From contig NZ_JACJJP010000015.1 in the NCBI RefSeq assembly GCF_016900095.1, forward strand, positions 1-64,000: a stretch of 64,000 nucleotides of DNA, given 5' to 3'. This stretch comes from Gemmiger formicilis (lineage in GTDB: Bacteria > Bacillota > Clostridia > Oscillospirales > Ruminococcaceae). Under the pieces are notes generated by a model. The model saw nothing but the letters and a program-made list of their open reading frames with translations, did no database searches and was not told the origin of the DNA. The stretch's first letter is position 1; every line of letters starts with the position of its first letter. Both the position numbers and the translations under genes were made by a program. This document shows, piece after piece, positions 5,272-55,878 of the stretch.

Positions 5272-5323
5272 AATCAGCGCTTGCTGAACTGCGGAGCGCG
5301 ACGGGCTGCCTTGAGGCCGTACT
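5272..5323. repeat. attL-type core: 52-bp copy of the rpsI 3' end
   Basis: This 52-bp stretch matches 55827-55878, the end of rpsI, with a single mismatch (T at 5307, G at 55862). Read on the minus strand it encodes the S9 tail [15 protein letters not shown] and a stop, and the mismatch is synonymous (GCA versus GCC, Ala). Similarity ends on both sides of the 52 bp. Confidence 0.95.
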
Positions 5324-5384
5324 GCTATCGTTTTAGCGCCGTTTTTCCTTGATTTTACGGGCTTTTTTGAGGTTGCATCCCTTG

Positions 5385-5405
5385 GTTGTCCTACCCCTTA
5401 ACCCA
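5385..5405 (+). repeat. Left arm-type repeat of the ICE
   Basis: The sequence GTTGTCCT-N5-TTAACCCA begins 61 bp inside the left core and immediately precedes the Int1 stop codon. Two similar copies lie inside the right end (55654-55674 and 55696-55715) in the same orientation. By analogy with Tn916-type integrases these are probably arm-binding sites. Confidence 0.7.
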
Positions 5406-5406
5406 A

Positions 5407-6630
5407 TCAACCGGCAGCATTATCCGCGGTGCCGGATGGGTGAAGCGCCTGATTCACAACGCCAAAAAGTTCTTCGGGCTTATTGTACTTGACCTTTGCA
5501 TAAATGTCCATAGTTGTTTTGCTATTTTCATGTCCAGCAAGGTACTGAACCGTCTTTGGGTCAACGCCCGCATAAAGCAAATTTGTAATGTAGGTACGCC
5601 GGAGCTGATGGGGTGTCACTTCAAAATCCAGGGTATAGACAATCCTGGGGTTGTTTTTCTGGCTGGTTCCCAGCGTCGGCTTTACCGTGTACTTAATGCT
5701 CTGTCCGTTCACATACTTATAATAGGTGCGCTCCTTGGTGGAGCGGACAACAATGTACTGCCACACTCGCTTGAACTGTGAGTAAGACAAGGGCTGTCCC
5801 TCACTGTCGGCAATCACATAGTCAGACGTAGAGGTTGCTTTCGCTTCCCGCAGACAGTCAGCCAGACACTTGGGGATAGGGATGTCTCTCCTGGCCGCCT
5901 TGGTCTTTAGAACCGTAGAGACCACCGGGCGGTTGTGTTCTGCCCGCCATGCCCGCCGTACCGAAATGTACGGGGTGGGAACATCCAGAAACACACAGTC
6001 CCATTGGAGGGCAAGGGCTTCTTCCCGACGCAGGCCAGCGTATAAGCCGATCATCACAAAGAGATATGGCGGCAATCCTTTGATGGTCTCCAAAAGTACC
6101 GCCACCTGCTGGTCGCTCAGGGCCTCCTTCTTCTGTGCCGGCTTCCCGCCCTTACCCGATATTCCCGCGCAGGGGTTATCTTCAAGAAGCTGGCTGCGCT
6201 CCGCCGAATAGAAAACGCACTTGATGAGCATATTCACTTTGTTATACAGGCCCTCTGACTTCCTGGACAGCGGCACCAGCGCCAGCCGGATGTCATCCGC
6301 CGTCACTTCCTCCATATACATATCGCCCATCGGCTTGATGACGTAGTTCCTCATGTTGGAGGCGTATCCTTTCAAAGTGGCTGCCGAAACTTTTGCAGAC
6401 TGCATCACCAGCCATTTCTCGCAATACTCCGCAACGGTCGGGTGCTGGCGGTGAAAGAGGATCTCCTGCACTTGGCGTCTCGCCGCTAATTGCTTCTCGT
6501 AAAGTTCCTCGCAGGTTGTCGCGTACAGGCTGACCTGCTTTCCATCGGCGTCCAGAATCCGCGTGCGGTAATACTGGATTCCTTTTCGCTCTACGCTGGT
6601 GTACTGGGGAATTGTTTTTTTCTTAGCCAT
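5407..6630 (-). CDS. Tyrosine recombinase Int1 of the ICE
   Basis: This 407-residue phage/Tn916-family integrase is the gene closest to the left att core, which makes it the leading candidate for rpsI-specific integration and excision. The catalytic residues are R201 (GLRREE), H341 and R344 (HQLRR), H367 (LAGHE) and Y377 (DIYAKV). The N-terminal ~60 residues form the arm-binding domain and about 64-160 the core-binding SAM-like domain. The start is an ATG with AGAAAGGA upstream. It is clearly paralogous to Int2 at 6772. An arm-type repeat lies directly beyond its stop codon. No excisionase gene is adjacent; the nearest lies beyond Int2. Confidence 0.93.
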   Translation of the reverse strand: MAKKKTIPQYTSVERKGIQYYRTRILDADGKQVSLYATTCEELYEKQLAARRQVQEILFHRQHPTVAEYCEKWLVMQSAKVSAATLKGYASNMRNYVIKPMGDMYMEEVTADDIRLALVPLSRKSEGLYNKVNMLIKCVFYSAERSQLLEDNPCAGISGKGGKPAQKKEALSDQQVAVLLETIKGLPPYLFVMIGLYAGLRREEALALQWDCVFLDVPTPYISVRRAWRAEHNRPVVSTVLKTKAARRDIPIPKCLADCLREAKATSTSDYVIADSEGQPLSYSQFKRVWQYIVVRSTKERTYYKYVNGQSIKYTVKPTLGTSQKNNPRIVYTLDFEVTPHQLRRTYITNLLYAGVDPKTVQYLAGHENSKTTMDIYAKVKYNKPEELFGVVNQALHPSGTADNAAG

Positions 6631-6721
6631 AGATAATTTCCTTTCTTATGCGCAAATCAAATTGATTCCTTCACTCCTTTTTTATCAGAAACGCCGGATT
6701 GAATCAAAGATACGGATTAGG

Positions 6722-6754
6722 AAAAGCAAAGAGCGAGGCGTTCCTGCCTCGCTC
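6722..6754 (-). terminator. Terminator between Int2 and Int1
   Basis: The stem GAGCGAGGC (6731-6739) with GCCTCGCTC (6746-6754) has a 6-nt loop. It is followed on the minus strand by TTTGCTTTT, just after the Int2 stop, so Int1 may need its own promoter. Confidence 0.7.
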
Positions 6755-6771
6755 CTACTGTATTTTCTGTT

Positions 6772-7992
6772 CTATGCCCACATGGCATCCCATTGGGCAA
6801 ATGCGCCGTCCATCGCTTTGACGACCTGATCTGGCTGATTGTATTTGACTTTGGCGTAAATATCCATCGTAATTTTGCTGCTCTCATGGCCCGCCAGGTA
6901 CTGCACCGTTTTGGGGTCCACCGAAGAATGAATCAGGTTGGTTATGTAGGTGTGTCTGAGTTGGTGGGGAGTGACCTCGAAATCCAGGCTGTAAACACAG
7001 TGACCGTTGTTCCGGGCCTTCTCTCCCAGCTGCGGGTAGAGGATATACTTCACATATTTCCCGTCTACCAGCTTCTTTGCCACTCTCGGTCTGGCGGTCC
7101 TTGTCACAATGTATTGCCACAGCCGCTTAAACTGTGTGTAGGACAGCGGGCCGCCATCCCGATTCGCCACCACATAATCAGAGGTAGATGTTTTCTTCGC
7201 CTCCCTCAAACACTCTGCCAGGCAGGTCGGGAGCGGGATATTCCGCTCTGCCGCCTTGGTCTTTAGTTCGGTGAGAATGACTGGCCGATTATGCTCCGTG
7301 TGCCATGCCCGCCGGACTGTCAGATAAGGGGCCTCCGCGTCCAAATACACCGAATCCCATTGGAGCGCGAGGATTTCTTCTCTCCGCAAACCGGCATACA
7401 AACCAATCATTACAAACACATAGGGTGGCAAGTCCCGGATTGCGTCTAAAAGTTGCTCGACCTGTTCATCCGTCAACGCCTGGCGGTCCTCCTGCGGGAT
7501 ACCGCCGCCTTTTGCGTTTAGATGGAGCGTCGGATTCACTTCAATCACATGGCTTTCCTTTGCCGCCCGAAAGATGGATTTATAAAGGATCACCACGGAC
7601 TTGTAAACCGATGCCGATTTTTTGGAAACCGGGACAAGAGCGAGCTGGATGTCATCCAGAGTTACATCTGCCATCCGCATCTCTCCCAATTCCTTAATGA
7701 TATGCCGCCTCACCTTGGAGGTGTAATCTGTCAAGGTGGTCTGCCGCACATGGACCGACTGCATCAGCAGCCATTTCTCACAGTATTCTGCTACCGTTGG
7801 CGATTTCCGATGAAACCGGGCATGACCGATCTGCTCCAACGCCTCCGTTTCTTTGTCATACAGTCCTTCGGGGGTTCTCGCATAAAGGGCGACCCGCTTG
7901 CCATCGGCATCCTCGATTCGGGTCCTGTAATACTCTACGCCATTCAGCGTGACCGTACTATAATCTGGAATTAGTCGTTTTCTTTTTGCCAA
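6772..7992 (-). CDS. Tyrosine recombinase Int2, paralogue of Int1
   Basis: This 406-residue integrase aligns with Int1 along its whole length, with long shared blocks such as FVMIGLYAGLRREE and VDPKTVQYLAGHE. The catalytic residues are intact: R203, H343, R346, H369 and Y379. Translation starts at TTG 7992 with GAGAGG eight nt upstream. The excisionase-like gene follows upstream in the same direction, so Int2 and not Int1 has the standard int-xis arrangement. It may be a second active recombinase, a remnant of an accreted element, or a duplicated copy now specific for another site. Nothing in the sequence shows that it is inactive. Confidence 0.93.
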   Translation of the reverse strand: MAKRKRLIPDYSTVTLNGVEYYRTRIEDADGKRVALYARTPEGLYDKETEALEQIGHARFHRKSPTVAEYCEKWLLMQSVHVRQTTLTDYTSKVRRHIIKELGEMRMADVTLDDIQLALVPVSKKSASVYKSVVILYKSIFRAAKESHVIEVNPTLHLNAKGGGIPQEDRQALTDEQVEQLLDAIRDLPPYVFVMIGLYAGLRREEILALQWDSVYLDAEAPYLTVRRAWHTEHNRPVILTELKTKAAERNIPLPTCLAECLREAKKTSTSDYVVANRDGGPLSYTQFKRLWQYIVTRTARPRVAKKLVDGKYVKYILYPQLGEKARNNGHCVYSLDFEVTPHQLRHTYITNLIHSSVDPKTVQYLAGHESSKITMDIYAKVKYNQPDQVVKAMDGAFAQWDAMWA

Positions 7993-8076
7993 TACCGTTA
8001 CCTCTCAAGAATCATATTCAGCGCTGTATCTTTGTTTTACCAGACACCACTTATTTCAGCAAGGATACGGATTAGC

Positions 8077-8307
8077 TCACGCCTCGGCACTTCGCACTTT
8101 GCGGTATGTGGCGCACTTTTCCACCGGCTTCGCCCGATGCGTGAATTTTGCGATGTACTCCTGAAGGCTTGCGTCTGTGAAATAGACGCAGCCGTTCTGC
8201 ACATACTGAACATAGGAAATCAGGCCATTGTTGCGGGCCGTGTCCAGTGTTGCAATACTGATTCCCAGGATTTTGGCCGCTTCTTTCCTTGTAAATAACT
8301 TTTCCAT
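8077..8307 (-). CDS. Excisionase-like MerR/HTH_17 protein
   Basis: This 76-residue protein starts MEKLFTRKEAAKILGISIAT, the standard HTH_17 excisionase opening (helix-turn-helix about 5-27). A wing region (YVQNGCVYFTDASLQEYI) and a basic tail follow. The ATG at 8307 has GGGAGAG eight nt upstream; the longer open frame upstream has no ribosome site. Its partner is probably Int2, 84 bp downstream, and it may also serve Int1. Such proteins bend att DNA and direct excision. Confidence 0.85.
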   Translation of the reverse strand: MEKLFTRKEAAKILGISIATLDTARNNGLISYVQYVQNGCVYFTDASLQEYIAKFTHRAKPVEKCATYRKVRSAEA

Positions 8308-8883
8308 ATAATCTCTCCCTTCTTTGTCAAGGATATGGTTGTGGCTTTCAAAATCACATGAATGCGCTGGCGGTTTTGCCTGCCAGCGCATGGTATCTAA
8401 TTTTGAAATTCTTTTTTGTGTTACGCCACATTTGCCACGCACCCCTGACGCAGGGGACAGGACAGGTCTCCGCTGGCGCGGCTGTCATAACTCCGCAGCG
8501 TCGTTCATAGCGTGCGCCGCAGGGTTCCCCCCAAGTCTTTGGCGGGCCGTGAGGAAGTATCTTTAAGCCCCCGCGCAGTCATCGCGCCGGATATGCCACC
8601 ATCCGGGTCACAGGGCCGTTGATCGCTCCGAAACAGCTTGTCCATCACCTCCTGGCTGCTCCATCTTCGCGGCGTCCTGCACTCGCTCATACGCGGGTTA
8701 TGTACCTGTTCTGCCGTGTATTCAGTTGTCAAAGATCAGCGAAGGAAAAATCCCCTTCTTGATAACCATGACAAAAACAGGCGATTTGTCCTGCCTGTAA
8801 TGCGATTTTTTTGAAAAATATTTTTGCCTTGCCGCTTCATAAGAGCTGCGGGCGAGGCAAGCATACAGCAAGCACAATAAAAT

Positions 8884-10146: not shown

Positions 10147-10267
10147 GTCACTCTTTGGGCATAAGGAACGGCGGCCTTGATTTTGTCAAAGCCGCCGTAA
10201 GTGTGTTTAGGGCATGGCGATTGCCTGCTGAACGACGGCTTTTTTTCTTTTGCCGTCGTTCGGCAGA
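10147..10267. repeat. Cargo-flanking repeat, left copy
   Basis: About 120 bp carrying two strong hairpins: a CGGCGGCC...GCCGCCG stem and a CGAACGACGGC...GCCGTCGTTCG stem with a T-rich loop. A diverged copy at 17402-17523 has the same hairpins in the same order and orientation, starting with GTCACTC and GGGCATAA and ending with CGGCAGA. The two copies bracket the peptide-resistance module exactly. Confidence 0.85.
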
Positions 10268-10783: not shown

Positions 10784-11080
10784 TCACTGAACGAAAGAAA
10801 GGAACAAAGCGAGTGCGACAATTCCTACCATCAGCAACAACCAAAAAGCACTGACTGCTGTTGATACGATATTGATAACACTGCGGCTTTCCCTGTTCCG
10901 CACACAAACTACCGAAAGAATCAGGCCCAGCAGGACAAAGACGATATTGGCTCCGGCCCAAACAGTTCGGATGCCGTCCGACAGCGAGAGGTGCAGAAAG
11001 GACGGGACAAGGGCTGCCAGCGGCAGGATGCTCACAATGAGCGCAGCAACACTGATTGATTGAAGTTTTTTCTTTTCCAT
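10784..11080 (-). CDS. Small three-segment membrane protein
   Basis: A 98-residue protein with hydrophobic segments at about 8-30, 40-60 and 72-96. It is not recognised as a named family. It sits 5 bp after the permease gene with its own GAGG site, and the next gene's ribosome site overlaps its stop, so it is expressed with the ABC transporter. It could be an accessory transporter subunit. Confidence 0.65.
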   Translation of the reverse strand: MEKKKLQSISVAALIVSILPLAALVPSFLHLSLSDGIRTVWAGANIVFVLLGLILSVVCVRNRESRSVINIVSTAVSAFWLLLMVGIVALALFLSFVQ

Positions 11081-11084
11081 AGAT

Positions 11085-11849
11085 TTACCTCATTTCTTTT
11101 TTCCCAAAGCGGGTGACAGCCAGCGCGAAAAGCAGACCGAACACGATGATCGCACATGGCAGGAACGGAAACAGCGAAAAAGCGGCATCGGAGGTTTCTG
11201 CTGTAAAGTCATGGAGAGAGCAGGAAACGAGATAGCCACTGTAACAGTACGGATAAACAATCCACAGCGGCGTATTCGCAACCAAGATACCGGGAATTAC
11301 AAGCAGCAAATTCAACCCAACGGAAAGAAGCGGCTTTTCAAACAGAACCGTGATTGCCCACATAGCCGCAATACACGGCAGCATTGTCAGGAACAGCCCC
11401 AGGCACCATTTCAGCAGATACAGGATCGGCAAGGTTTCTGTTACTCCCATCGTCTGTGTCGCAATCAATCCCGCAATTACAAACACTGCAAGAAACACCA
11501 CCATTTCCATGAACAGGTAAAATGCCAGCACACAGAACTTGGCAATCGAAAGCGCGTATCGGCTGACCGGCAACGCCAGCATTTTTAAGATGCCATTGTT
11601 ACCGGTTTCCCGGCCTGCAATCATTACACAGACAACAATCATACTGAACGGCAACAGGTAATACGCATAAACCAGTGCGCTCTGAATGAACATGGCAGGC
11701 CATGCGTTTGTATATTCCGGGGTAAAATAGCGGCTCAGGCTTGCAACCCCGGAGGCAACCACCAGCAAAGGTGCGATAAAGATCAGCGGTACAATCTTTG
11801 AGCGTTTTACCTTCATAAACTCAATTTTGAGCAATTCCAAAAAACTCAT
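11085..11849 (-). CDS. ABC-2 permease, lantibiotic-immunity type (subunit 2)
   Basis: A 254-residue membrane protein with six predicted helices. It resembles the MutE/MutG and CprB/CprC permeases of antimicrobial-peptide export systems. The N-terminal LLKIEFMKVKRSK cytoplasmic start is typical of this family. It follows a second permease by 15 bp and an ATPase further upstream. The predicted complex would extrude cationic peptides or lantibiotics from the membrane. The substrate cannot be read from the sequence. Confidence 0.85.
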   Translation of the reverse strand: MSFLELLKIEFMKVKRSKIVPLIFIAPLLVVASGVASLSRYFTPEYTNAWPAMFIQSALVYAYYLLPFSMIVVCVMIAGRETGNNGILKMLALPVSRYALSIAKFCVLAFYLFMEMVVFLAVFVIAGLIATQTMGVTETLPILYLLKWCLGLFLTMLPCIAAMWAITVLFEKPLLSVGLNLLLVIPGILVANTPLWIVYPYCYSGYLVSCSLHDFTAETSDAAFSLFPFLPCAIIVFGLLFALAVTRFGKKEMR

Positions 11850-11864
11850 TTCTTCAATCCCTCC

Positions 11865-12590
11865 TTACTCATAGCGTTTGCTTTTTGCCAGCCACAGTGC
11901 AATAGCAAGGAACAAAACAGTCTCTACCAGAGATACCACGGTCACAGCCATATCAGGCTGGGCGCTCATGGCAACTGCCGGTTTCAGCATAAGCACAAAA
12001 GGATGAACCATCAGGACAGCAAGATTTGAACTGGCCAGCGCCATACCGCTTAAAAATCCTGCGACTCCAACGCCGAGCGGTATCCACATATTTTCAAAGC
12101 GTGAAGAAATCAGCAGCATGAACGACAACACCGGCATGGATGTGAGGAAAGAATATCCGGCAAAGCGCACCAGTGTTCCCATTTCAAATGTCCCGTCCGG
12201 CAAGTCTGTTATGCCAATCTGCATAAGTGCTAAATTTTGCAGTACGATTGCAATCAAAAACAGCACCGTCAGAATCAGAAATTTGCACAGGTACATAGCC
12301 GGAACACTCATAGGGAGCATATACATCTTCTTAATGGCGCTGCCCTTAAACTCCATGTTGTAGATCATGCAGGTGGCAACTACAATACCGAACAGGTTCA
12401 GGATCATAATCACACCGTAAAGCTGGGTGAGCAGAACATCCATCGGGGCCAGCGGCAAATTGAGAAGCGTGTCTTTTCGCACGAGGAAGTTCACAAATGC
12501 GTATGCGGCTCCTAACACGCCAACGGCCAGCAATACAGGAATAACGCCGGTTCGCTTTTCTTTCCGAAGTTCGATTGACAGTACATTCAT
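11865..12590 (-). CDS. ABC-2 permease, lantibiotic-immunity type (subunit 1)
   Basis: A 241-residue six-helix permease with the N-terminal signature SIELRKEKRTG, paralogous to the downstream permease and similar to MutE/SpaE/CprB proteins. Its ATG overlaps the stop of the ATPase gene as ATGA, giving translational coupling. Two dissimilar permeases with one ATPase are the standard composition of this exporter class. Confidence 0.85.
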   Translation of the reverse strand: MNVLSIELRKEKRTGVIPVLLAVGVLGAAYAFVNFLVRKDTLLNLPLAPMDVLLTQLYGVIMILNLFGIVVATCMIYNMEFKGSAIKKMYMLPMSVPAMYLCKFLILTVLFLIAIVLQNLALMQIGITDLPDGTFEMGTLVRFAGYSFLTSMPVLSFMLLISSRFENMWIPLGVGVAGFLSGMALASSNLAVLMVHPFVLMLKPAVAMSAQPDMAVTVVSLVETVLFLAIALWLAKSKRYE

Positions 12591-13351
12591 AGCTGCGCCC
12601 TCTGCTTTCTGGCCGCGTTATCTTTCTCCACCATCGAGAGGAACATATCCTCCAGATTGTCCGCTGCAAAACCTGCCCGTAAAGCACTTTGGCGAAGCTC
12701 ATTCAGACTTCCTTCAAACAGAAGCCGCCCATGATTGAGAATACCGATGTCATCCGCTATCAGTTCGATCTCGGACAGCATATGGGACGAGATCAGGATG
12801 GTGCAGTCGTACAGATCTGGCAGGGACTTCACCAGGTTGCGGATCTCATGGATGCCTGAAGGGTCAAGCCCATTTGTCGGCTCATCCAAAATAAGGATAG
12901 GGGGCCTGCCCAGTAGCGCACCGGCGAGGCCGAGCCGCTGTTTCATTCCCAACGAATATTTTTTTGCCAGCCGATCGCCAAACTCCGTCAAGCCAACAAG
13001 GTCCAATGCATCCTCTACAGCACTTTTCGGAAGTCCCAAAATCCTGCGGATGACATCGAGATTTTCCCGGCCCGTCAGGTTTGCGTAAAACGAAGGTGAC
13101 TCAATGAACGAGCCGACTTCCTTCAAAATCGCAATACGGTCAGCCGGGAATTGCTTTCCATCAATGGTAAAGCTGCCTTTTGTGGGGGCGGTCAAACCCA
13201 GCAGCATTTTCATAGTGGTAGATTTGCCTGCTCCGTTCGGGCCGAGAAAGCCATAAATACTGCCTTTGCGGATATGAAGCGAAACATGGTTGACAGAAGT
13301 GAAGTTCTTATATTTCTTCGTCAACTGTTCCGTAGTAATCATGTAATCCAT
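12587..13351 (-). CDS. ABC transporter ATPase, lantibiotic-immunity (MutF/CprA) type
   Basis: A 254-residue ATPase: Walker A GPNGAGKS at 37-44, signature SLGMKQ at 133-138, Walker B ILILDEP at 152-158, and a switch His in the SSHML segment. The order ATPase-permease-permease and the sequence GRPPILILDEPTNGLDPSG are typical of BcrA/MutF/CprA proteins. The ATG at 13351 has AAAGGAG upstream. It is first in a minus-strand operon that diverges from the response regulator gene. Confidence 0.9.
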   Translation of the reverse strand: MDYMITTEQLTKKYKNFTSVNHVSLHIRKGSIYGFLGPNGAGKSTTMKMLLGLTAPTKGSFTIDGKQFPADRIAILKEVGSFIESPSFYANLTGRENLDVIRRILGLPKSAVEDALDLVGLTEFGDRLAKKYSLGMKQRLGLAGALLGRPPILILDEPTNGLDPSGIHEIRNLVKSLPDLYDCTILISSHMLSEIELIADDIGILNHGRLLFEGSLNELRQSALRAGFAADNLEDMFLSMVEKDNAARKQRAQL

Positions 13352-13447
13352 AAGAACATCTCCTTTCATTGACTTCATCATAGAACATCAACCTGACTTC
13401 TACATTCTCGCGTCCTTACTTTTACCTTACTTTTTCGGAATACCCGT

Positions 13448-13473
13448 CACAGGTTGGCATCCTGTGCTATAAT
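13448..13473 (+). promoter_or_regulatory. Promoter with palindrome upstream of the response regulator
   Basis: An inverted repeat CACAGG-N7-CCTGTG (13448-13466) directly abuts a TATAAT -10 box (13468-13473); no good -35 is present, as is usual for an activator-dependent promoter. The AGGAGG of the regulator gene lies just downstream. The palindrome may be the binding site of the response regulator. Confidence 0.6.
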
Positions 13474-13492
13474 AATTTCAGGAGGTGACGCT

Positions 13493-14194
13493 ATGGACAA
13501 CTCTTTTCTGCATCGAAAAAAGCTCCTGCTTGTAGATGACGAGCCGGAGCTGCTGAAAATGGTATCAGATATTTTGAAAGATGCTGGTTTTGAAACTGTT
13601 CTTACTGCCGGATTAGTAAAAGAAGCTGTCATGGCGGCAAAACAGGAAAAACCTGATTTGATGATATTGGATGTCATGCTGCCGGATGGAGACGGCTTTT
13701 CCCTGATGGAGCAGCTCCGCACTTTTACTGATGTGCCGGTTATCTTTCTGACTGCAAAAGACGAAGCGGCTGACAAACTGGCCGGTCTTGGCCTTGGTGC
13801 AGATGATTACATTTCAAAGCCATTTATGCCACAGGAGCTATTGCTGCGTGTCTATGCTGTCTTGCGCCGCACTTACAAAGAGGACAGCCCTCTGGTTGTC
13901 CTGGATGGATGCACGATTGATTTTAGCCGGGCAGAGGTCAACAAAGGCGGCAAGATTATCCCCCTGACCGCAAAAGAACATACTCTATTGGAAACGCTGG
14001 CTCGCAACGAAGGAAAGATTGTTACGGTTGACGCCCTTTGTGAAGCATTATGGGGTGACAATCCTTTCGGCTATGAAAACAGCTTGAACGCCCATGTGCG
14101 GCGTGTTCGGGAAAAAATTGAAGCCGATCCCTCAAAGCCTGTTTCCTTGATTACGATTAAGGGGCTGGGCTATAAATTGATTACAAGGAAGTGA
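13493..14194 (+). CDS. OmpR-family response regulator (CprR/NisR-like)
   Basis: A 233-residue protein with a receiver domain (acidic pocket D15 D16, phospho-acceptor D60 in LMILDVMLPD, K109 in YISKP) and a C-terminal winged helix (about 130-230) with the GYENSLNAHVRRVREKI recognition region. The ATG at 13493 has AGGAGG nine nt upstream. The histidine kinase gene follows by 4 nt. Placed divergently to the peptide-export ABC operon, it most likely activates that operon when its kinase senses peptide. Confidence 0.9.
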   Translation: MDNSFLHRKKLLLVDDEPELLKMVSDILKDAGFETVLTAGLVKEAVMAAKQEKPDLMILDVMLPDGDGFSLMEQLRTFTDVPVIFLTAKDEAADKLAGLGLGADDYISKPFMPQELLLRVYAVLRRTYKEDSPLVVLDGCTIDFSRAEVNKGGKIIPLTAKEHTLLETLARNEGKIVTVDALCEALWGDNPFGYENSLNAHVRRVREKIEADPSKPVSLITIKGLGYKLITRK

Positions 14195-14198
14195 CGCC

Positions 14199-15572: not shown

Positions 15573-15601
15573 ATTGCTAAAAGAGCAGGAAGGAAAAATG
15601 G

Positions 15602-16726: not shown

Positions 16727-16884
16727 AATCAGACTTTGTAATATTGTAAGATAAGGACGGGAGTGACCGGCAAGCAATGCCTGTGGCTATCCAGATAGCC
16801 CCACGCGCTTGTTGAGGGATACCCCCAAGCCCCCTTTGAACGCAGAATTTCATTCTGCGGCTGCGCGTTCTACGAACGCTTTTA

Positions 16885-16920: not shown

Positions 16921-16923
16921 GCA

Positions 16924-17358: not shown

Positions 17359-17401
17359 GATTATTCTCCTTTGCAAACTGCCAGTCTGCCAGCAAAGAAG
17401 T

Positions 17402-19762: not shown

Positions 19763-19763
19763 T

Positions 19764-44171: not shown

Positions 44172-44544
44172 ACCATTCCCCCAGCATGAGGGAGGCCGCC
44201 ATGCTGGAAAGCTCCGCATAGGCCGCCAGCCCCAGCGGACCCACAAAGCGGCACTCGGTCAGGCAGGCGTAGAGCTGGGCCACCACGTCGGCCAAAATCT
44301 GGACCTCGGTGCCCTCCAGCACAGTCTCACCGGCCTGCCCGCGCTGGACCTTGGCGGCGCACAGAATCTCCACCAGCCGCAGCAGGCCGGTCTCGCCGGT
44401 CTCGGTCAGTTCAGCGGCCTGGTCCGCCGCCGTGCGGCACTCGGAAACGGCATCCGCCATCGCCGTCAGGAGCGCGGTGCGCTGGGTTTCCAGCGCCCGG
44501 TCCAGAAACATCATGTGGTCGTTATGCAGAATTTCGGGTTTCAT
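44164..44544 (-). CDS. Hypothetical ICE protein between VirB4 and CHAP
   Basis: A 126-residue helical, alanine- and glutamate-rich protein (RLVEILCAAKVQRGQ, ADVVAQLYACLTE). It overlaps the VirB4 stop (ATGA) and the CHAP start. Not recognised; possibly a channel accessory by position. Confidence 0.65.
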   Translation of the reverse strand: MKPEILHNDHMMFLDRALETQRTALLTAMADAVSECRTAADQAAELTETGETGLLRLVEILCAAKVQRGQAGETVLEGTEVQILADVVAQLYACLTECRFVGPLGLAAYAELSSMAASLMLGEWFD

Positions 44545-46988
44545 CGTCCATCAGCCTCCTTCATTTCCTGGGGTTTGGTCGTCATAATGCGATACAGTTC
44601 GGTATTCTTGGGGAAGTGGTCCACAAAGGGCAGGATGGTGGAGCCGTAGAACAGCAGCCCCTCGCCCTCGCCGGAGTGGGTCACATAGGACAGCTGGTGC
44701 GGGGAAATGCCCAGCTGCCGGGCCAAAATCTGCCGGTCACCGCCCGCCTGGTTGAGCATATACACGAAGTCGGAGTTTTCAAAGATGTTTTCCACCTCGC
44801 GGCTGCTCAAAAGGTCTTTGACATTCTGCGTGATGCCCGTGGGAATGCCGCCCCACTTACGGAACCGCTTCCAAATCTCCACCGTATAGGCGGCGGTCTG
44901 TTCCTCTTTCAAGAGCAGGTGCATCTCGTCGATGTAGTAGCGGGTGGACTTGCGGGCCGCCCGGTTGATGGTGACGCGGTTCCACACCTGGTCCTGCACC
45001 ACCAGCATACCGATCTTTTTCAGCTGCTTGCCCAGCTCCTTGATGTCGTAGCAGACAATGCGGTTGTTGATGTCCACGTTGCTGCGGTGGTTGAACACGT
45101 TGAGGGAGCCGGTGACGTAGATTTCCAGCGCCGTGGCGATGTACTGCGCCTCTTTCTCGTCCTGCGCCCGCAGCAGGTCGTACAGATCCTCCAGAATGGG
45201 CATATTCTCCGGGCGCGGATCGTTGAGGTAGTCCTGATACACCAGCCGCACACAGCGGTCAATAATGGTTTTCTGTACCGGCTGCAATCCGTCCTTGCCG
45301 CCCACGATCAGCTCGCACAGCGACAAGATGAAGTCGGATTTCAGCGACAGCGGGCTTTCATCGTCCGAATAGTCCAGGTTCAGGTCCATCGGGTTGATAT
45401 AGTTGGTGGAGGTGGGCGAGATTTTGATGACCTGCCCGTGCAGGCGCTCCACCAGCGGCGCGTACTCGGCCTCCGGGTCACAGATGATGACATCATCGCT
45501 GGTGAGCAGGAAGCAGTTAGCGATCTCACGCTTGGCGCTGAACGATTTGCCGCTGCCCGGCGTGCCTAAAATCAGGCCGTTGGGGTTTTTCAGCAGCTTG
45601 CGGTCCACCATGATGAGGTTATTGGACAGGGCGTTGATGCCGTAGTACAGCGCCTCTTTGCCATTCTGAAAAAGCTCCTGGGTGGTGAATGGCACGAAGA
45701 TGGCGGTAGAGCTGGTAGTCAGCCCGCGCTGGATCTCCACCTGGTTCAGCCCCAGCGGCAGAGAGGACATCAAGCCTTCTTCCTGCTGGAAGTCCAGCCG
45801 GGTCAGCTGGCAGTTGTACTTCTGCGCGATGGAGCTCGCCTGGAAGATGTTGTTGCCCAGCTGGCGGGGATTGTCCGCGGTGTTCAGCACCAAAAACGTC
45901 ACCAGGAACATCCGCTCGTTGCGGCTTTGCAGGTCCTGCAACAGCTTCTTGGCCTCGGCCCCGTAGGTAGCAAGGTCGGACGGGATGATGTCCATGTCAT
46001 ACCCGGCGCGGACGGCCTTTTTCTGTTCCTCGATCTTGCTGCGGTCCAGGTCGGTGATCTTGCGCTTCACCGTCTTGATGGCCTTCACCTGGTCCACCGA
46101 CTGGATGTGCAGGTTGACGATGAGGGAACTTTCCATATCGAGAAAATCCGCCAGCATACGGTCATTCAGCTCCGGGGCCAGAATCTGCACGAAGCTGACG
46201 GCCCCGTACTTCTTTCCCATGCGGAACTGCTTGCCGGTGCGGAACTCGAAGCCGGACGGAGCGATAAAGTCTTTGGTGGAAAGGCCGCTGGGAGCCAGCC
46301 AGTCCCACTCGAACTGGAACGGTGCCTGCTCGTCCATGTGGAAGATGGCGTGGAGCTGGGCCAGCCGAGCTTTGCCGTCCAGGACCTCGGCGGCCACGCC
46401 CAGCCGCTTGAAGTTGTTCAGCACATCGGTCTCGATACGCTCCAGACGGGGCTTGGCGGAGCGGATGCTGTCGGCCTCGATGGAAAAGGTCAGGTACTTG
46501 GTCTTGATGAGGCCGTTGTTGCCCCGCGCCAGCTGGTTTTGCAGCATCTGCGTGTACTCCACCCGGATGGGGTCAAAGTCATCTCCCTGAGCCGGGATGG
46601 TGATGCTGTTGGCGAAGGTCTCCTGGGACGCTGCCAGGTTCAAAAAGGACAGCTGGAAACGGATGGAGCTGTCAAAATAGTTGAGGAAATCGCACCAGCC
46701 TTCAAAGATGGCGGTCTTGTCCTCGTTCTGGCTGAGCTGGTAGTTGATGTCCTGGAACTGGATGGTCTTGGTGTAGCGGCCATCCGCCACCTTGCAGATG
46801 CCGTCCGGCCACATCCGCTCATAGGGGATGCTGTCCTGGGCGGACTGTTCCTTTTTGCCCGTGCGGTTGGCGCGGGCAATCGCTGCCTCGATCTGTTTGC
46901 GTTCGGCGCGGGTCAGCTTACGCCGGGGTTTGGTCTGCGGCTCTGCCGGTTCAGCCTGCCGCTTTGTCTTTGCCGCGAACAATGTCAT
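44541..46988 (-). CDS. virB4: VirB4-type conjugation ATPase
   Basis: An 815-residue protein of the VirB4/TraE/ConE family that powers type IV secretion. Walker A LGTPGSGKSFSAKRE and Walker B RYYIDEMHLLL are visible, with the DVIICDPEAEYAPL segment between. I chose the ATG at 46988; AAGGAGG is close to it (3 nt), so the TTG at 46982 is an equally possible start. The gene begins inside the PrgI gene, overlapping it by 38 bp. The longer open frame upstream is a shadow of that gene. Confidence 0.92.
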   Translation of the reverse strand: MTLFAAKTKRQAEPAEPQTKPRRKLTRAERKQIEAAIARANRTGKKEQSAQDSIPYERMWPDGICKVADGRYTKTIQFQDINYQLSQNEDKTAIFEGWCDFLNYFDSSIRFQLSFLNLAASQETFANSITIPAQGDDFDPIRVEYTQMLQNQLARGNNGLIKTKYLTFSIEADSIRSAKPRLERIETDVLNNFKRLGVAAEVLDGKARLAQLHAIFHMDEQAPFQFEWDWLAPSGLSTKDFIAPSGFEFRTGKQFRMGKKYGAVSFVQILAPELNDRMLADFLDMESSLIVNLHIQSVDQVKAIKTVKRKITDLDRSKIEEQKKAVRAGYDMDIIPSDLATYGAEAKKLLQDLQSRNERMFLVTFLVLNTADNPRQLGNNIFQASSIAQKYNCQLTRLDFQQEEGLMSSLPLGLNQVEIQRGLTTSSTAIFVPFTTQELFQNGKEALYYGINALSNNLIMVDRKLLKNPNGLILGTPGSGKSFSAKREIANCFLLTSDDVIICDPEAEYAPLVERLHGQVIKISPTSTNYINPMDLNLDYSDDESPLSLKSDFILSLCELIVGGKDGLQPVQKTIIDRCVRLVYQDYLNDPRPENMPILEDLYDLLRAQDEKEAQYIATALEIYVTGSLNVFNHRSNVDINNRIVCYDIKELGKQLKKIGMLVVQDQVWNRVTINRAARKSTRYYIDEMHLLLKEEQTAAYTVEIWKRFRKWGGIPTGITQNVKDLLSSREVENIFENSDFVYMLNQAGGDRQILARQLGISPHQLSYVTHSGEGEGLLFYGSTILPFVDHFPKNTELYRIMTTKPQEMKEADGR

Positions 46989-47334
46989 ACACCTCCTTGT
47001 CGAGATTTGCCTGCCGCTCCAACACGGCATAGAAGTTGTTGGTGCGGTAGGGGCGCTGCTTGGGCCGGATGACGGCCACCTTGAGGATGTTGCCGATGAT
47101 CTTTTCCAGGGGCTGGCCGTGTTTTTCATACATCGCCAGCATGAAGAAGGGCAGCATGACGAGCATCATGCACATGGCCGCCACGCTGTTGCCAGCAGGA
47201 CCCCGGAGCAAAAAGAAAAGCGGCACGCCGATGAGCGCCCCGCAGCCGAAGCAGACAAGCTGTCTCTTGGTTAAGTTGAACGCGACCTTGGTTTTGACTT
47301 TCGTCAGGTCTTTGGGTACGGGTACATAAGCCAT
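46951..47334 (-). CDS. PrgI family membrane protein
   Basis: A 127-residue protein with MAYVPVPKDLTKVKTK at the start and two membrane helices (about 32-48 and 53-70), then a basic C-terminal part. This is the PrgI-type partner (VirB3-like) that precedes VirB4 in Gram-positive conjugation systems. The ATG at 47334 has AAGGAGGG upstream. Confidence 0.88.
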   Translation of the reverse strand: MAYVPVPKDLTKVKTKVAFNLTKRQLVCFGCGALIGVPLFFLLRGPAGNSVAAMCMMLVMLPFFMLAMYEKHGQPLEKIIGNILKVAVIRPKQRPYRTNNFYAVLERQANLDKEVYDIVRGKDKAAG

Positions 47335-47356: not shown

Positions 47357-48226
47357 TCAATGTGCGTTGAATACGGCTTTGGACAGGCTGCCGGTCTTGA
47401 ACAGCGTAAAACACAGCAGCACGGTATAGCCCACACAGCTCCAGATCGCCATGATGATGTCCTCCTCGGTGGCGATGTTCTGCACCAGTACGGCGTAGAT
47501 CGCTACACAGACGATAATCAAAAATGCCTGGAAGCCCAGAGCCAGCAGGCTGCGCAGGTAGTTCTGGCCCATGCCGCCCCATTCCTTGCCCATCATGGTC
47601 GCCATCGGGATGGGGGCCACCGACGTGACAAGGTAAATTTCGATCATACGGCCATAAATGACGATGAAAATGCAGATATACAGCGCCCACATGGTAATGC
47701 CGATAAAGAGCGACTGGAACCACAGGCCGAACAACGGCCCCAGGTCCATATCCATCAGCCGGGACTCCATATCGGTCATAACAGCGGAGATGTCGATGGA
47801 AGCGTCCGAACCGATGATGCCGGACGCCTGGGCCACCACGCTTTGGGCCATGTCGAACACGGCCATGACGAGGTTCCAGGTGTTGGTGACGAGCAAAATC
47901 GCGGCGGCGGATTTGAACACCCATTTGAAGATCATCCAGGTGTCCACGTCATGCAGGTTGTTGCGGTCGGTAATCATCTGGATCAGCTCCAGCGTCATCA
48001 CGATAGCCAGGATCACGCCAGCAATCGGCACCATGATGGAGTTGGAGAGGTTCTGGATCATACTGAAAATGCTGCCGTTCCACCCCTGCGGGGTCTGGCC
48101 CACCTGTACGGATATATCCGCGACCTGCTGATTTACGCTGTCGAACATCCCCGATAAGTTTCCCATGATGCCGCCCACCAGCATCTCTTTCAGCCAGTTG
48201 GTAAGGGCATCCAATAAGAAATCCAT
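47357..48226 (-). CDS. VirB6/TrbL-like channel protein
   Basis: A 289-residue polytopic membrane protein with about five helices (around 60-82, 105-125, 168-200, 218-245, 252-272). It has a MDFLLDALTNWLKEMLVGGI start and a conserved APIPMATMMGKEWGGMGQNYL loop typical of the CD0411/VirB6-like family. It would form part of the inner-membrane channel. AAGGAGG precedes the ATG. Confidence 0.85.
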   Translation of the reverse strand: MDFLLDALTNWLKEMLVGGIMGNLSGMFDSVNQQVADISVQVGQTPQGWNGSIFSMIQNLSNSIMVPIAGVILAIVMTLELIQMITDRNNLHDVDTWMIFKWVFKSAAAILLVTNTWNLVMAVFDMAQSVVAQASGIIGSDASIDISAVMTDMESRLMDMDLGPLFGLWFQSLFIGITMWALYICIFIVIYGRMIEIYLVTSVAPIPMATMMGKEWGGMGQNYLRSLLALGFQAFLIIVCVAIYAVLVQNIATEEDIIMAIWSCVGYTVLLCFTLFKTGSLSKAVFNAH

Positions 48227-48729: not shown

Positions 48730-50559
48730 TCAATCGTCGGCTGCGGCGTCGATCTCATACACGTCGCAGACCTGGTTGGGTTTCAGCTTCAACCTGGCCC
48801 GCAGGAAATCTTCAATGCTGAACGCATTTTTCGGGTCGGCGTCGGCGGTGTACTTGTAGTTGGGGTGCTGGGTGATGTCGTACTTGTCCGACAGAAACGG
48901 CCGCACCCCGCGCAGCTGGAGGATGCACTTGCCACCGTCCATGACGGCCAGCTCATCCTGGCTCATCAGCTCTTTGCCGAGCTTCTGGTAGTTGAGCGAG
49001 TGGGAAGTTTCCCGCCCTCGGCTCTCGCCGGTGTTGTAGGTGTCGATGGTCTCCTTGCCCAGCACGGCGGCCAGCTCCTTCAATGTGGTCGGCTCCTTGC
49101 CGCCCAGGAAGATGGAACTGTCCATATTGCCGATGATGGTGTCGGCGTTGTCCTTGTAGATGGCCTTGAGTTGGCTCTGTGCCTGCAAGACCAGGCAGGC
49201 GGAAATCTCCCGGCTGCGGATGGTAGCCACCAGCTTTTCCAGCTTGGGGATCTGGCCGATGTTGGCGCACTCGTCGATGAGGCACCGCACATGGACCGGC
49301 AGCCGCCCGCCGTACACATCGTCGGCTTTCTCGCACAATAGGTTGAACAGCTGGGTGTAGCACATGGAGATCAGGAAGTTAAAGCTATCGTCGGTATCAC
49401 TCATAATGAGGAACAGGGCCGTCCGCCGGTCTCCCAGGGTATCCAGCTCCAGCTCATCGTAAGAGGTGATCTCCCGCAGCTCGGCAATATCGAACACGGC
49501 AAGCCGTGCCCCGCAGGAAATCAAAATCGACTTGGCGGTTTTGCCCGCCGCCAGCTTGTATTTCTTGTATTGCCGCACCGCAAAGTGGTTGGGGCTTCTG
49601 GCTTCCAGCTCGTCGAACATCAGGTCCACCTGATTTTTGAACTCCTCGTCATCCTCCCGCACCTCCATCGCGTTGATGAACTCGATGAGGGTGGAGAAAT
49701 TCTGTTCCTCCACCGGGGCCTCATAGTGGATGTAGCCGATGAGCGCACAGTACAGCAGCGTTTCCGCCTTGACCCAGAAATCGTCCCCGGCCTTGCCCTC
49801 GCCCTTGGTGTTGGCGATCAGCGTTGTTACCAGCTTTAAGATGTCCTTTTCGCTATGGATATAGCTGAAGGGGTTATAGTGCATCGACTTTTTGAAATTG
49901 ATGGTGTTCAGCACCTTGATCTGGTACGGCTCGTAAATGACCTTTCCGTGCTTGTCCTTCATGGGCTTGCCGTCCTTGCCCAGCTTGGGTGCGCCCCGCT
50001 GGAGCATTTTGCCGCACTCCACCAGGATGGTGCCCTTGGGGTCGGTAACGACGTAGGAGCTGTGCATCTGCATCAGGTTGGGCTTGAGCCAGAAACGGGT
50101 CTTGCCGCTGCCGGAACCGCCGATGACCAGCACGTTTTTATTGCGGGCATACTTGGGGTTCTTGGGGCGGCTGGACATGGTGAGGCGTTCGGTCTGGGTC
50201 AGAATGACGTTGTTCTGGAACACCGGGTCGATGTAGGGGGCAATATCGTCATGGGTGCCCCATCTGGCCGAGCCGTACTCCATGTTGTGGCGGTACTTCT
50301 TGGCGTTTTTGCCTTTCAGGTACACCGCCAGCCGCAGCGCAGCACCGCAGCAAAGCCCCACGGCCAGGTCCAGCGGGTGCAGGCTGGGCCACCAGCTCCC
50401 CAGCGCCACCGGCAGGGTGGAGAAAAACGAGAGCATCTTGGCCGAAGCGTCCGCTCCGGTTGCCAGCCGCCAGGCTTCCCCCAGGTTGGTGGCAAACAGG
50501 CCCAGCAGGATATAGGGCAGGTTCAAAAGGACCAGCTTTTTCACATTCAGCTGCTTCAT
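48730..50559 (-). CDS. virD4: VirD4/TcpA-type coupling protein
   Basis: A 609-residue type IV coupling ATPase with N-terminal membrane helices (about 9-28 and 53-80), Walker A VIGGSGSGKTRFWLKPN, Walker B/DECA motif CLIDECANIGQIPKLE and the conserved SILISCGARLAVFDIAEL region. It links the relaxosome to the channel. The ATG at 50559 overlaps the PcfB stop (ATGA), with GGAAGGAG upstream; the longer frame is a shadow. Confidence 0.93.
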   Translation of the reverse strand: MKQLNVKKLVLLNLPYILLGLFATNLGEAWRLATGADASAKMLSFFSTLPVALGSWWPSLHPLDLAVGLCCGAALRLAVYLKGKNAKKYRHNMEYGSARWGTHDDIAPYIDPVFQNNVILTQTERLTMSSRPKNPKYARNKNVLVIGGSGSGKTRFWLKPNLMQMHSSYVVTDPKGTILVECGKMLQRGAPKLGKDGKPMKDKHGKVIYEPYQIKVLNTINFKKSMHYNPFSYIHSEKDILKLVTTLIANTKGEGKAGDDFWVKAETLLYCALIGYIHYEAPVEEQNFSTLIEFINAMEVREDDEEFKNQVDLMFDELEARSPNHFAVRQYKKYKLAAGKTAKSILISCGARLAVFDIAELREITSYDELELDTLGDRRTALFLIMSDTDDSFNFLISMCYTQLFNLLCEKADDVYGGRLPVHVRCLIDECANIGQIPKLEKLVATIRSREISACLVLQAQSQLKAIYKDNADTIIGNMDSSIFLGGKEPTTLKELAAVLGKETIDTYNTGESRGRETSHSLNYQKLGKELMSQDELAVMDGGKCILQLRGVRPFLSDKYDITQHPNYKYTADADPKNAFSIEDFLRARLKLKPNQVCDVYEIDAAADD

Positions 50560-51056
50560 CGCTCCGGCTCCTTCCTGTGGGCGCGGTCCACCACGGCGCT
50601 TTTTACCAGCTCTTTGAACTGAGCCAGCTTCTCCAGCACGGACGGACACTCGCTGCGCTCCGCCTTCTTGACCTTTTTCTGGGTGTATTCAGAAAAAGCA
50701 GCGGTCAGCGCGTCGGCGTCCCGGCCCTTGAAGAAGATCAGGTACTTGGGCGGCGAAGTGCTGCGGTCCTTTTTCACCGCATAGTCCACGCCGTACTTGC
50801 GGGCGATACGCTCAAAGTCCCGGATGGACGGGTCGTTGATCTCAATGTTGGAAACGCCCTGGTTCTGCCCGATGAGCTGTTTCACCGTCTGTTTGCCCTT
50901 GGGGGTGACGGGGGAATCCCGGCTGCGCTGCTTTTCCAGCTTCTTCTCCCTGCGGTGGGCCATGTACTTGGATATGGCGGCCTTGAACAGCCGCCCGGTG
51001 AACTTTGTGCCGCTGACTACCAGCGTCAAAGTCCTGTTTTCCACTTCCTCCTGCAT
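50556..51056 (-). CDS. PcfB-like conjugation accessory protein (DUF3801)
   Basis: A 166-residue protein with MQEEVENRTLTLVVSGTKFTG at the start, a basic middle and a conserved ISNIEI/IRDFERIARKYGVDYAVKKD block. It matches the PcfB/DUF3801 family encoded just before the coupling protein in enterococcal and CTn elements. PcfB couples the relaxosome to PcfC in pCF10. Confidence 0.85.
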   Translation of the reverse strand: MQEEVENRTLTLVVSGTKFTGRLFKAAISKYMAHRREKKLEKQRSRDSPVTPKGKQTVKQLIGQNQGVSNIEINDPSIRDFERIARKYGVDYAVKKDRSTSPPKYLIFFKGRDADALTAAFSEYTQKKVKKAERSECPSVLEKLAQFKELVKSAVVDRAHRKEPER

Positions 51057-53671: not shown

Positions 53672-54601
53672 TCATCGCTCCTGGTCTCTCTGGCGCTTGC
53701 GCTGCCACGCTTCCAGCAGCTTGATAATGGTCTCCTGCATCCGGGCGGGGGTGTAGCTCCTGGGAAAATACTTGCGCAGGGTGTCGCTGGTGAAGGTGAT
53801 CTTATCCAGGTCGCTTTTCTTTTCTTCCCCCATGATGACGCGCATCATGTCGAGGGTCAGGTGGCCCTCCTGGCTGTACTTTTTCAGCCGCTGGGCCTGG
53901 GAGAGCGACGGCGTAGCCTGTTCGCTGTCCATCGCGTCCAGAAGCTGCGTCTGTTCCTCTTTTTTGAGGAAAGACAGCTCATAGGCCGGGTTGAAGGCAA
54001 TTTTCTTCTCATCCACCATGTCCAGCAGTTCGGGAATTAACTCGGTAAGGCGGATGTAGCGCATAACCTGTATGCCGCTGCGCTCACCTGCATCTTTCGC
54101 CACGCGGTCACGGGCGCTTAACTTCTGTTCAACTTGAACAGAAGTCAGGTCTGTTCTGGCCCCCTGGTGCTTGATGGCCTCCAGCTTCATCTTATAAGCA
54201 AAAGCTCGCTCGCTGGGGAGCAGGCTTTCCCGCTGCAAATTGCTGTCAACCATGATGATAGTGGCCTGATCGTCATCCAGGTCACGGACAATGACCGGCA
54301 TGGTATCCTTGCCAGCCAGTTCGCTGGCCCGGTGACGCCGGTGTCCGGCGACCAGCTCATAGCCGCCGTTCGGGTCCGGGCGGGCGATGGCAGGAACCAG
54401 CACGCCGTACTGCCGGATGCTGTCGGCGGTCTCCATCATGGCCTCATCGTCCTTGACCTTAAAGGGGTGGTCCTTGAAGGGGTGCAGCTCCGACAAGGGA
54501 ATTTCCAGAACCTTCTCCCGCTGGGCGTCGGCCCGGCTTTCCTCTGTGGAGAACAAGTCATCTACCGAGGCCAGCTCTACTTTTTTCGCGCTGCTTTTCA
54601 A
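53672..54601 (-). CDS. parB: ParB-like partition protein
   Basis: A 309-residue ParB/Spo0J-type protein. The ParB/Srx nuclease-like domain (about 30-120) shows ELVAGHRRHRASELAG, and an HTH region lies at about 165-235. The start is TTG 54601 with AAGGAGG upstream, overlapping parA by 44 bp. With ParA it would segregate the circular form of the ICE. Confidence 0.9.
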   Translation of the reverse strand: MKSSAKKVELASVDDLFSTEESRADAQREKVLEIPLSELHPFKDHPFKVKDDEAMMETADSIRQYGVLVPAIARPDPNGGYELVAGHRRHRASELAGKDTMPVIVRDLDDDQATIIMVDSNLQRESLLPSERAFAYKMKLEAIKHQGARTDLTSVQVEQKLSARDRVAKDAGERSGIQVMRYIRLTELIPELLDMVDEKKIAFNPAYELSFLKKEEQTQLLDAMDSEQATPSLSQAQRLKKYSQEGHLTLDMMRVIMGEEKKSDLDKITFTSDTLRKYFPRSYTPARMQETIIKLLEAWQRKRQRDQER

Positions 54602-55379
54602 GTTTCAACACCTCCTTTGTCAGATTGCGGTAGCCCTCGGCCACCTTGCCGCCGGGGTCATGGGCGAAGATGCTCTTGCCCTCGGCGCTGATCTCCTTGG
54701 CCCGGACTGAATGTGGAATCTCGGTGCCGAACACCTTGATTTTGCTGCCGTAGGTCTCCCGCAGCAGGGCGGCGATTTCTTTCGCAAAATTGGTTCGGCT
54801 GTCCACCATCGTCAGCAGGATGCCGTCGATCTGGAGTTTAGGGTTCAGCTGCCGCTTGACCTTGCTGATGGTGGACAGCAGCTGTTCCAGGCCCTTGGCA
54901 GGCAGATACTCCGCCTGAACGGGGACTATGATCCTGTTGGCGGCGGCCAGGGCGTTGACTGTGAGCATCCCCAGGGAGGGCTGGCAGTCAATCAGGATAT
55001 GGGAATACTGTCCCTTCACGCTGTCCAGATACTGCCGCAGGACGGTTTCTCGGCTCATGGCGTTCACCAGCGATACCTCCATGCCGGACAGCTGGATGTC
55101 GGCGGGCATGAGGTCCACGCCCTCCGGGTGGTGCAGGATGCCCTCGCCGGGGCGCAGCGGCTCGTCCATCAGGATACGGCCCATCGCGTCAGACAGGGTA
55201 AAGGGCAGCTTGTCCGGCTGCGGGTTGCCCAGGCTGATGGTAAGGCTGGCCTGGGGATCGGCGTCCAGCAGCAGCACCTTCTTCCCGGCCTGGGCCAGCC
55301 CGATGCCCAAGTTCGCGCAGGTGGTCGTTTTGCCGACGCCGCCCTTCTGGTTGGCGACGGCGATGATTTGTGGGTTCAT
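54558..55379 (-). CDS. parA: ParA-like partition ATPase
   Basis: A 273-residue Walker-type ATPase with the deviant Walker A NQKGGVGKTTTCANLG (about 10-25), LLLDADPQ and ILIDCQPSLG. It is the first gene of the long minus-strand array at the right end of the ICE. GAGGTGAA lies before the ATG. Confidence 0.93.
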   Translation of the reverse strand: MNPQIIAVANQKGGVGKTTTCANLGIGLAQAGKKVLLLDADPQASLTISLGNPQPDKLPFTLSDAMGRILMDEPLRPGEGILHHPEGVDLMPADIQLSGMEVSLVNAMSRETVLRQYLDSVKGQYSHILIDCQPSLGMLTVNALAAANRIIVPVQAEYLPAKGLEQLLSTISKVKRQLNPKLQIDGILLTMVDSRTNFAKEIAALLRETYGSKIKVFGTEIPHSVRAKEISAEGKSIFAHDPGGKVAEGYRNLTKEVLKLEKQREKSRAGLGR

Positions 55380-55470: not shown

Positions 55471-55500
55471 TGATCCCGGAACATTAGTCCCCGGAAATAC

Positions 55501-55532
55501 AAAAAGCGCCCAGCAGGAACACTGAGCGCTTT
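55501..55532 (-). terminator. Second hairpin in the right ICE end
   Basis: AAAAAGCGCCCAG against CTGAGCGCTTT; on the minus strand a T run follows. The gene-free stretch 55380-55828 holds these hairpins, the arm repeats and the rpsI terminator, and no gene. The parA promoter was not identified with confidence. Confidence 0.65.
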
Positions 55533-55653
55533 CGCAATAAAATCATATTCATTTGTTCAGATTTGGTCAAACTCTGCCAAACCGATTTTGCATAAAAATT
55601 CGGAGGGGCAAAAATGCAAAAATGACCTCATGGGAGGGTGCAGGGGCAAAAAA

Positions 55654-55674
55654 GTTGTCCTATAATTTAACCCA
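55654..55674 (+). repeat. Right arm-type repeat, copy 1
   Basis: GTTGTCCT-N5-TTAACCCA, same orientation as the copy near Int1 (5385-5405) and as copy 2 22 bp away. Confidence 0.7.
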
Positions 55675-55695
55675 TTAGCCCTCATTTTAGGGGTG

Positions 55696-55715
55696 GTTGT
55701 CCTTTATTTAACCCA
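55696..55715 (+). repeat. Right arm-type repeat, copy 2
   Basis: GTTGTCCT-N4-TTAACCCA, one base shorter between the boxes than copy 1. It lies about 110 bp inside the right core. Confidence 0.7.
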
Positions 55716-55774
55716 TAAAAATTGGTTCAAAACAGGTCAGACCATGCCAAAACAGGCCAAACAATCTGAAAAGG

Positions 55775-55810
55775 AAAAACCCCGAAAACCGCATGGTTTC
55801 GGGGTTTTTG
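55775..55810. terminator. Terminator for rpsI supplied by the ICE end
   Basis: AAAAACCCCGAAA and TTTCGGGGTTTTT form a strong stem with a short GC loop, 19 nt past the rpsI stop. It lies inside the ICE, so the element restores termination as well as the coding end. T runs on both sides make it bidirectional. Confidence 0.88.
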
Positions 55811-55826
55811 AGCTGTTTTGAACTGA

Positions 55827-55878
55827 AATCAGCGCTTGCTGAACTGCGGAGCGCGACGGGCGGCCTTGAGGCCGTACT
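55827..55878. repeat. attR-type core at the end of rpsI
   Basis: The counterpart of 5272-5323 (51 of 52 bases). It covers the last 15 codons and the stop of the intact rpsI. Confidence 0.95.

Follow-up and report, generated by a model that had tools for sequence, protein, structure and literature searches.

How can an essential ribosomal gene take up an island of some 50 kb at its 3' end and still encode a whole protein? The question is raised by rpsI, the gene of ribosomal protein S9, in Gemmiger formicilis, where we analysed the first 64,000 nucleotides of contig NZ_JACJJP010000015.1 (the window). Judged by its gene content, the island agrees with the usual definition of an integrative and conjugative element (ICE), and it is very probably an ICE in the rpsI 3' end that restores S9.

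A direct repeat of the S9 tail delimits the island

Comparison of 5272-5323 with 55827-55878 within the window found the two ends, hereafter the core copies, identical at 51 of 52 bases, just as the initial annotation had read them. The sole mismatch (5307/55862, T/G on the plus strand, GCA/GCC on the coding strand) is synonymous at Ala122, with GCA in the far core copy and GCC in the rpsI copy. The match is longer than the 52 bp, reaching 61 bases at 93% with a start-to-start spacing of 50,555, and no third core copy turned up when the window was scanned at up to 21 mismatches of 52. Both copies encode the 15-residue end of S9 and its stop, translation agreeing with what had been claimed for them, and rpsI is an open 132-aa minus-strand frame ending at 55829 that encodes a complete S9, kept intact as proposed. 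A 33-nt hairpin (-18.5 kcal/mol on folding) begins about 20 nt after the rpsI stop and is followed by a T-run, in line with the terminator placed 19 nt past the stop by the initial annotation; this hairpin was not among the results of a simple consensus terminator scan.

55829-56227, minus strand: rpsI (ribosomal protein S9, 132 aa; open reading frame); codons to about 118 probably host, the remainder probably element-supplied (tail, switch point)
55827-55878, minus strand: rpsI-joined core copy with putative element tail and GCC at codon 122 (repeat comparison, junction variation)
5272-5323, minus strand: far core copy with putative host tail and GCA, common to the ICE and a second element (repeat comparison, junction variation, second-element far ends)
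55776-55808, minus strand: terminator hairpin after rpsI, putatively element-supplied (from the fold)

The 50.5 kb between the cores contain a transfer set of relaxase, coupling protein, VirB4 and VirB6-like protein together with two tyrosine recombinases (int1 and int2). Relaxase, coupling protein, VirB4 and integrase are thus found between two delimited ends, as in an ICE, and the locus has the S9-tail direct repeat, the integrase at one end and the unchanged S9 of tyrosine-recombinase elements at the rpsI 3' end. The delimited repeat, transfer genes, integrases and intact S9 sustain the earlier claim of an ICE integrated here. Further ICE proteins are a 2545-aa helicase- and methylase-like protein and CHAP proteins, and the domains found include CD1107-like, DUF3848/3849, DUF3851, DUF4315 and TrbL_2. 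The transfer domains resemble those of Tn1549/Tn5252-type conjugation modules and may represent such a module.

5407-6630, minus strand: int1, tyrosine recombinase closest to the core (Pfam PF00589)
6772-7992, minus strand: int2, second tyrosine recombinase, 59% identical to int1 (domain search, alignment)
22205-23674, minus strand: relaxase of the MobA/VirD2 type (domain search)
44541-47129, minus strand: VirB4/TraG-type ATPase (domain search)
47357-48226, minus strand: TrbL/VirB6-like protein (domain search)
48730-50649, minus strand: coupling protein, T4SS-DNA_transf (domain search)
54558-55379, minus strand: ParA ATPase, first gene after rpsI (domain search, rpsI-locus survey)

Related elements occupy the same site

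An int1 search of a genome contig collection returned 291 relatives, of which the best 80 were analysed. An S9 tail lies no more than 260 nt past the integrase stop in 74 of the 80 loci and somewhere in the locus in 76. Of the four exceptions, the contig of L034 stops short of the core, and L062 has an int1 frame that continues onward and no core that could be found. In the other two, L084 and L099, [AG]TACGG comes after the element end and gives way to other sequence; these are insertions outside rpsI. This [AG]TACGG, approximately 100 nt after int1, is about all that the L084 and L099 sites share with the core. Hungatella hathewayi (L079, L099) carries one element in rpsI and another elsewhere.

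The rpsI side was surveyed in the genomes of 30 integrase-bearing loci from the int1 search. Within 1.5 kb after rpsI, the ParA gene of the ICE was found in 25 genomes, a second-element-like integrase in one and neither in four. In a class-wide survey, an int1 match at E <= 1e-90 was present in 5 of 291 genomes, including that of the window; the other four had the integrase pair in three cases and a fragment in one. In a phage collection (430 records) the integrase matches were all below 60% identity.

Of the tails findable by the search pattern, 56 of the 57 at rpsI and 72 of the 76 at the far end have the same amino acids. The four other far tails (L056, L087, L100, L108) have one amino acid altered; if these changes arose after insertion, S9 would receive an altered tail upon excision. 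A set of 30 rpsI loci (genus relatives L001-L028 and L030, order relative L029) includes 12 in which no more than 300 nt of contig remains beyond the S9 tail (L002, L003, L005, L011, L012, L014-L017, L019, L025, L028), as if assemblies broke there through mixed occupancy of the site.

Strand exchange maps mostly to codons 117-119

To map the exchange, we took the opening base of codon Tyr118 as +1 and used two sets of junctions, 24 loci with the same integrase-side end (L037-L060) and 19 rpsI loci with the same left end. No integrase-side copy varies between -55 and -2, and a single one differs at -56; nine of the 24 differ at -1, and variation continues from there through the tail and beyond the stop. 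On the rpsI side, copies vary upstream and at -1 (8/19) and are invariant from +31 to +68; 12 of the 19 match the element consensus from +1 and all 19 from +31. The main switch appears to fall between -1 and +6, a minority being attributable to later switches, conversions or element variants, and exchange would take place mostly at codons 117-119. In both insertions outside rpsI, precisely [AG]TACGG is retained, which fits the -1 to +6 segment.

5316-5322, minus strand: bases -1 to +6 of the far core, candidate ICE exchange segment (same bases at 55871-55877 in rpsI; variation in 24 + 19 junctions, secondary sites)

Because of these host/element switch points in relatives, GCC in rpsI would be element DNA and GCA in the far copy host DNA. 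The divergent base had been expected to show which strand came from the element, and it could be put to that use here.

The opposite polarity would follow from exchange at the 3' end of the core, with rpsI keeping its own tail (GCC host) and the GCA copy derived from the element. Such an exchange would suit the seven of 19 rpsI-side copies that deviate between +3 and +30, among them L116, which deviates up to +27 and there equals its own far copy. It is very improbable, given that in each of the 24 integrase-side copies the constant element sequence stops at -2 and host variation sets in at -1, and that the 12 rpsI copies identical from +1 come from different hosts.

Some observations nevertheless weigh against a switch confined to -1 to +6 and against the allele assignment built on it. 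The seven copies that leave the element consensus somewhere from +3 to +30 do so first at +18 (L007), +6 (L019), +7 (L116), +30 (L117), +6 (L119), +12 (L132) and +3 (L138), and a single fixed exchange point would not account for all copies. The rpsI loci that have the window's own left end (L001, L025, L113-L115) differ in the tail, and L005 and L131, with left ends close to that of the window, are grouped with the tail-variable loci. The element tail allele would then not be constant in the lineage of the window, and the assignment of GCC and GCA falls short of full certainty.

With exchange at -1 to +6 as the preferred reading, the 50.5-kb ICE would insert site-specifically into the rpsI 3' end, its tyrosine recombinases exchanging strands near the core start, around Lys117-Tyr118-Gly119. 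The gene would retain its own codons up to the exchange and gain the last approximately 14 codons, stop and terminator of the element, while the original host tail would move to the integrase side. The proposal that the element brings its own S9 end is thereby upheld in substance and amended in length, with about 14 codons (from Gly119) and not exactly 15.

Sites without the ICE and a second element in the far flank

In four Gemmiger loci (L023, L024, L026, L030) the native G5/3D gene directly follows rpsI, with one core copy per 3.4-kb stretch. Window positions 4457-5332 align with genome G034 at 96.7% over 877 bp, and the far flank is joined there straight to rpsI; G034 has a second-element end at rpsI, lacks the ICE at that position and holds a single core in a 2.7-kb stretch. 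Relatives without the ICE and yet with both cores, named in the initial annotation as the case that would speak against integration, were checked for, and all five of these sites have one copy.

We rejected the sequence left of 5272 as plain chromosome, as genes for a tyrosine integrase, an HTH protein, an AAA protein and a Mob_Pre relaxase lie there. The far flank is a second rpsI-targeting element, missed by the initial annotation, which makes the site a two-element array.

425-1600, minus strand: Mob_Pre (MobV-type) relaxase of the second element (domain search)
1793-2770, minus strand: AAA_25 ATPase of the second element (domain search)
3305-3907, plus strand: HTH protein of the second element (domain search)
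3910-5034, plus strand: tyrosine integrase of the second element, different from those of the ICE (domain search, relatives)
5274-5290, minus strand: AGTTCAGCAAGCGCTGA, 17 bp common to the tail and the far end of the second element (far-end comparison)

The second element shares only the last 17 bp of the S9 tail. Relatives of its integrase, 61 to 99% identical, adjoin rpsI or the core in G004, G026, G016, G049, G079, G034 and G024. Far ends that have AGTTCAGCAAGCGCT[GA]A in common with the tail are present in G004, G016, G049 and G079, and G006 has one with a single mismatch. It counts against this picture that the far end was looked for in G026 and not found. Both G004 and G026 are complete genomes, and in each of them rpsI is followed first by an ICE (~62 and 64 kb), then by a core and then by the second element. 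The mirror of the window's order occurs in G079, where the far end of the second element runs directly into the left end of an ICE.

In the window's own genome a matching far end lies near 8799 on contig C32, followed by lgt-like and G5/3D genes, the latter being the native gene downstream of rpsI as in the four Gemmiger loci above. C32 as the start of another ICE was rejected, since these genes follow and no ICE protein was matched. Having its own relaxase and integrase and ends at the same target, the second element would be a smaller mobilizable element, a putative integrative and mobilizable element (IME), split between contigs C6 and C32, whose continuity in this strain we infer. Sigma-like, RsgI-like, VTC and CotH proteins are encoded at ~2566-8459 of C32 (L179), before the far end, and are possibly cargo of the second element.

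The far tail would double as the attachment site of the second element, giving the order rpsI - ICE - tail - IME - 17 bp - chromosome. Two families with different exchange points share one gene end, which would explain the stacking of ICE and IME at rpsI. Among the 76 loci with a core, the far core is followed by the ParA gene of another ICE in six (L043, L049, L069, L073, L096, L103) and by a second-element-like integrase in nine. Element arrays at rpsI recur.

A conserved pair of integrases

The int2 gene precedes int1 in 73 of the 80 loci. Six of the seven loci without it start too near a contig edge, and L087 (Roseburia faecis) has int1 without int2 despite enough upstream sequence. Five of the 73 int2 genes (L036, L062, L067, L070, L071) are partial, cut or interrupted and were left out of the alignment. 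The residues that we take to be the catalytic set (Arg, Lys, His-x-x-Arg, His, Tyr) are kept in 81 int1 and 69 int2 sequences, the window's included, with the second Arg of int2 in 68 of 69. Pairwise identities of int1 and int2 correlate with r = 0.96 (68 loci). The median ratio of non-synonymous to synonymous substitution rates (dN/dS) is 0.051 for int1 and 0.049 for int2 (14 representatives each; 42 and 59 of 91 pairs with usable dS), and both integrase genes are under purifying selection. Searching from the int2 side, we found int2 in five of 35 Gemmiger genomes, with int1 adjoining in all five; one internal stop is recorded for the int2 of G016. An int2-type gene was also present in 28 of 30 further genomes, which derive from int1 loci and so are not independent. 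G377 has an int2 fragment only, G385 has int2 on a different contig than int1, and G384 and G389 are without int2. The two integrases of Gemmiger gallinarum DSM 109015 share 98.5 and 99% identity with those of the window.

These data bear on whether the island is a decayed, immobile element with the repeat as a relic. Relatives with an interrupted or incomplete int2 (L036, L062, L067, L071) are in keeping with decay; in the window, however, the frames of both integrases and of the main transfer genes are uninterrupted, relatives whose integrases show ~85% identity to those of the window are spread over many named genera and have identical integrase-side ends, and the median dN/dS is near 0.05 for both integrases. 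Decay is improbable on this evidence.

A core between the two integrases, which an old tandem of elements would be expected to leave, was also considered and rejected: none with 21 or fewer mismatches lies there. We tentatively propose, as possible rather than probable, that int1 and int2 form an obligate two-protein recombinase like XerC/XerD, each acting on one arm of an asymmetric, protein-coding attachment site, and that the last 16 codons of rpsI are a layered dock where unrelated elements would accumulate, their exchange points lying in different codons, and would recode the S9 tail synonymously, leaving the protein unchanged. That int2 is dispensable, with int1 alone integrating and excising and int2 a passenger or engaged in another task, has close to an even chance. 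L087, the five defective int2 genes and the internal stop in G016 speak for dispensability; the placement of int2 beside int1 in 73 of 80 loci with six of the seven misses at contig edges, the correlated identities, the low int2 dN/dS and the adjoining int1 in each Gemmiger genome with int2 speak against it. Excision, the role of int2 and the order of arrival are what we infer here from sequence.

Other genes of the ICE

The remaining features include cargo genes. Around the cargo, 10157-10250 and 17415-17507 share two short repeats (41 nt, 93%; 39 nt, 77%) at a distance of 7.26 kb, which perhaps stem from a duplicated regulatory region.

8077-8442, minus strand: small HTH_17 protein beside the integrases, possible excisionase by position only (domain search)
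10784-21663, strand not assigned: cargo of two ABC transporter sets, two histidine kinases, a response regulator and a VanZ-like protein (domain search)
24026-24874, minus strand: AbiEii-type toxin of a type IV toxin-antitoxin pair (domain search)
39082-41211, minus strand: DNA topoisomerase (domain search)
53672-54601, minus strand: ParB-domain protein (domain search)

Comparison with known systems

ICEs in rpsI are already known (PMC4701971, PMC12904643). The ICEs of streptococci use 18 targets, rpsI among them, and the authors of that work state that the product of the gene changes little or not at all on such insertion (PMC4701971). The streptococcal rpsI ICEs resemble the present one in their tyrosine integrase, the rpsI 3' end and the unchanged product; they differ in an ICESt3-type conjugation module and streptococcal hosts, and the accessible part of that account does not mention paired integrases (PMC4701971). 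ICE_RhoA2-183_rpsI of Roseburia hominis A2-183, in the FirmiData annotation, is likewise an ICE in rpsI of a gut member of the Clostridia, a likeness by description only (PMC12904643), and FirmiData permits one to three integrases per ICE (PMC9092696).

The second element resembles IMESag-rpsI, a small rpsI IME with a MobV relaxase and a tyrosine integrase, whose host is in contrast Streptococcus agalactiae and whose likeness to the 3910-5034 integrase is by description only (PMC5090054, PMC5704250). Similarly, the McRImecD islands of Macrococcus caseolyticus have a tyrosine integrase at rpsI and a 61-bp core in direct repeats, and circular excision was demonstrated for one of them; unlike the ICE, they are resistance islands not called conjugative in the accessible part of the report, with one integrase and imperfect repeats of 160-163 bp (PMC5341023). 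Two tandem tyrosine recombinase genes are also found in MTnPi1-3 of Prevotella intermedia, where the two are distantly related to each other, whereas the window's pair is 59% identical and rpsI-specific (PMC5704250). Both the accretion of ICEs and IMEs in tandem and the occurrence of tyrosine recombinases in tandem have been described (PMC5704250). Our literature search, whose scope excluded subscription literature, did not turn up any description of an integrase pair conserved at rpsI in Clostridia, which is a weak negative.

To these known systems the present locus would add a crossover map, one tail layered between two element families and the constancy of an integrase pair. The foreign part of an essential ribosomal gene could be told from sequence alone, the exchange being narrowed to a few bases by comparison of many hosts, and the long-kept integrase pair offers a concrete system for asking if an ICE can need two different tyrosine recombinases.

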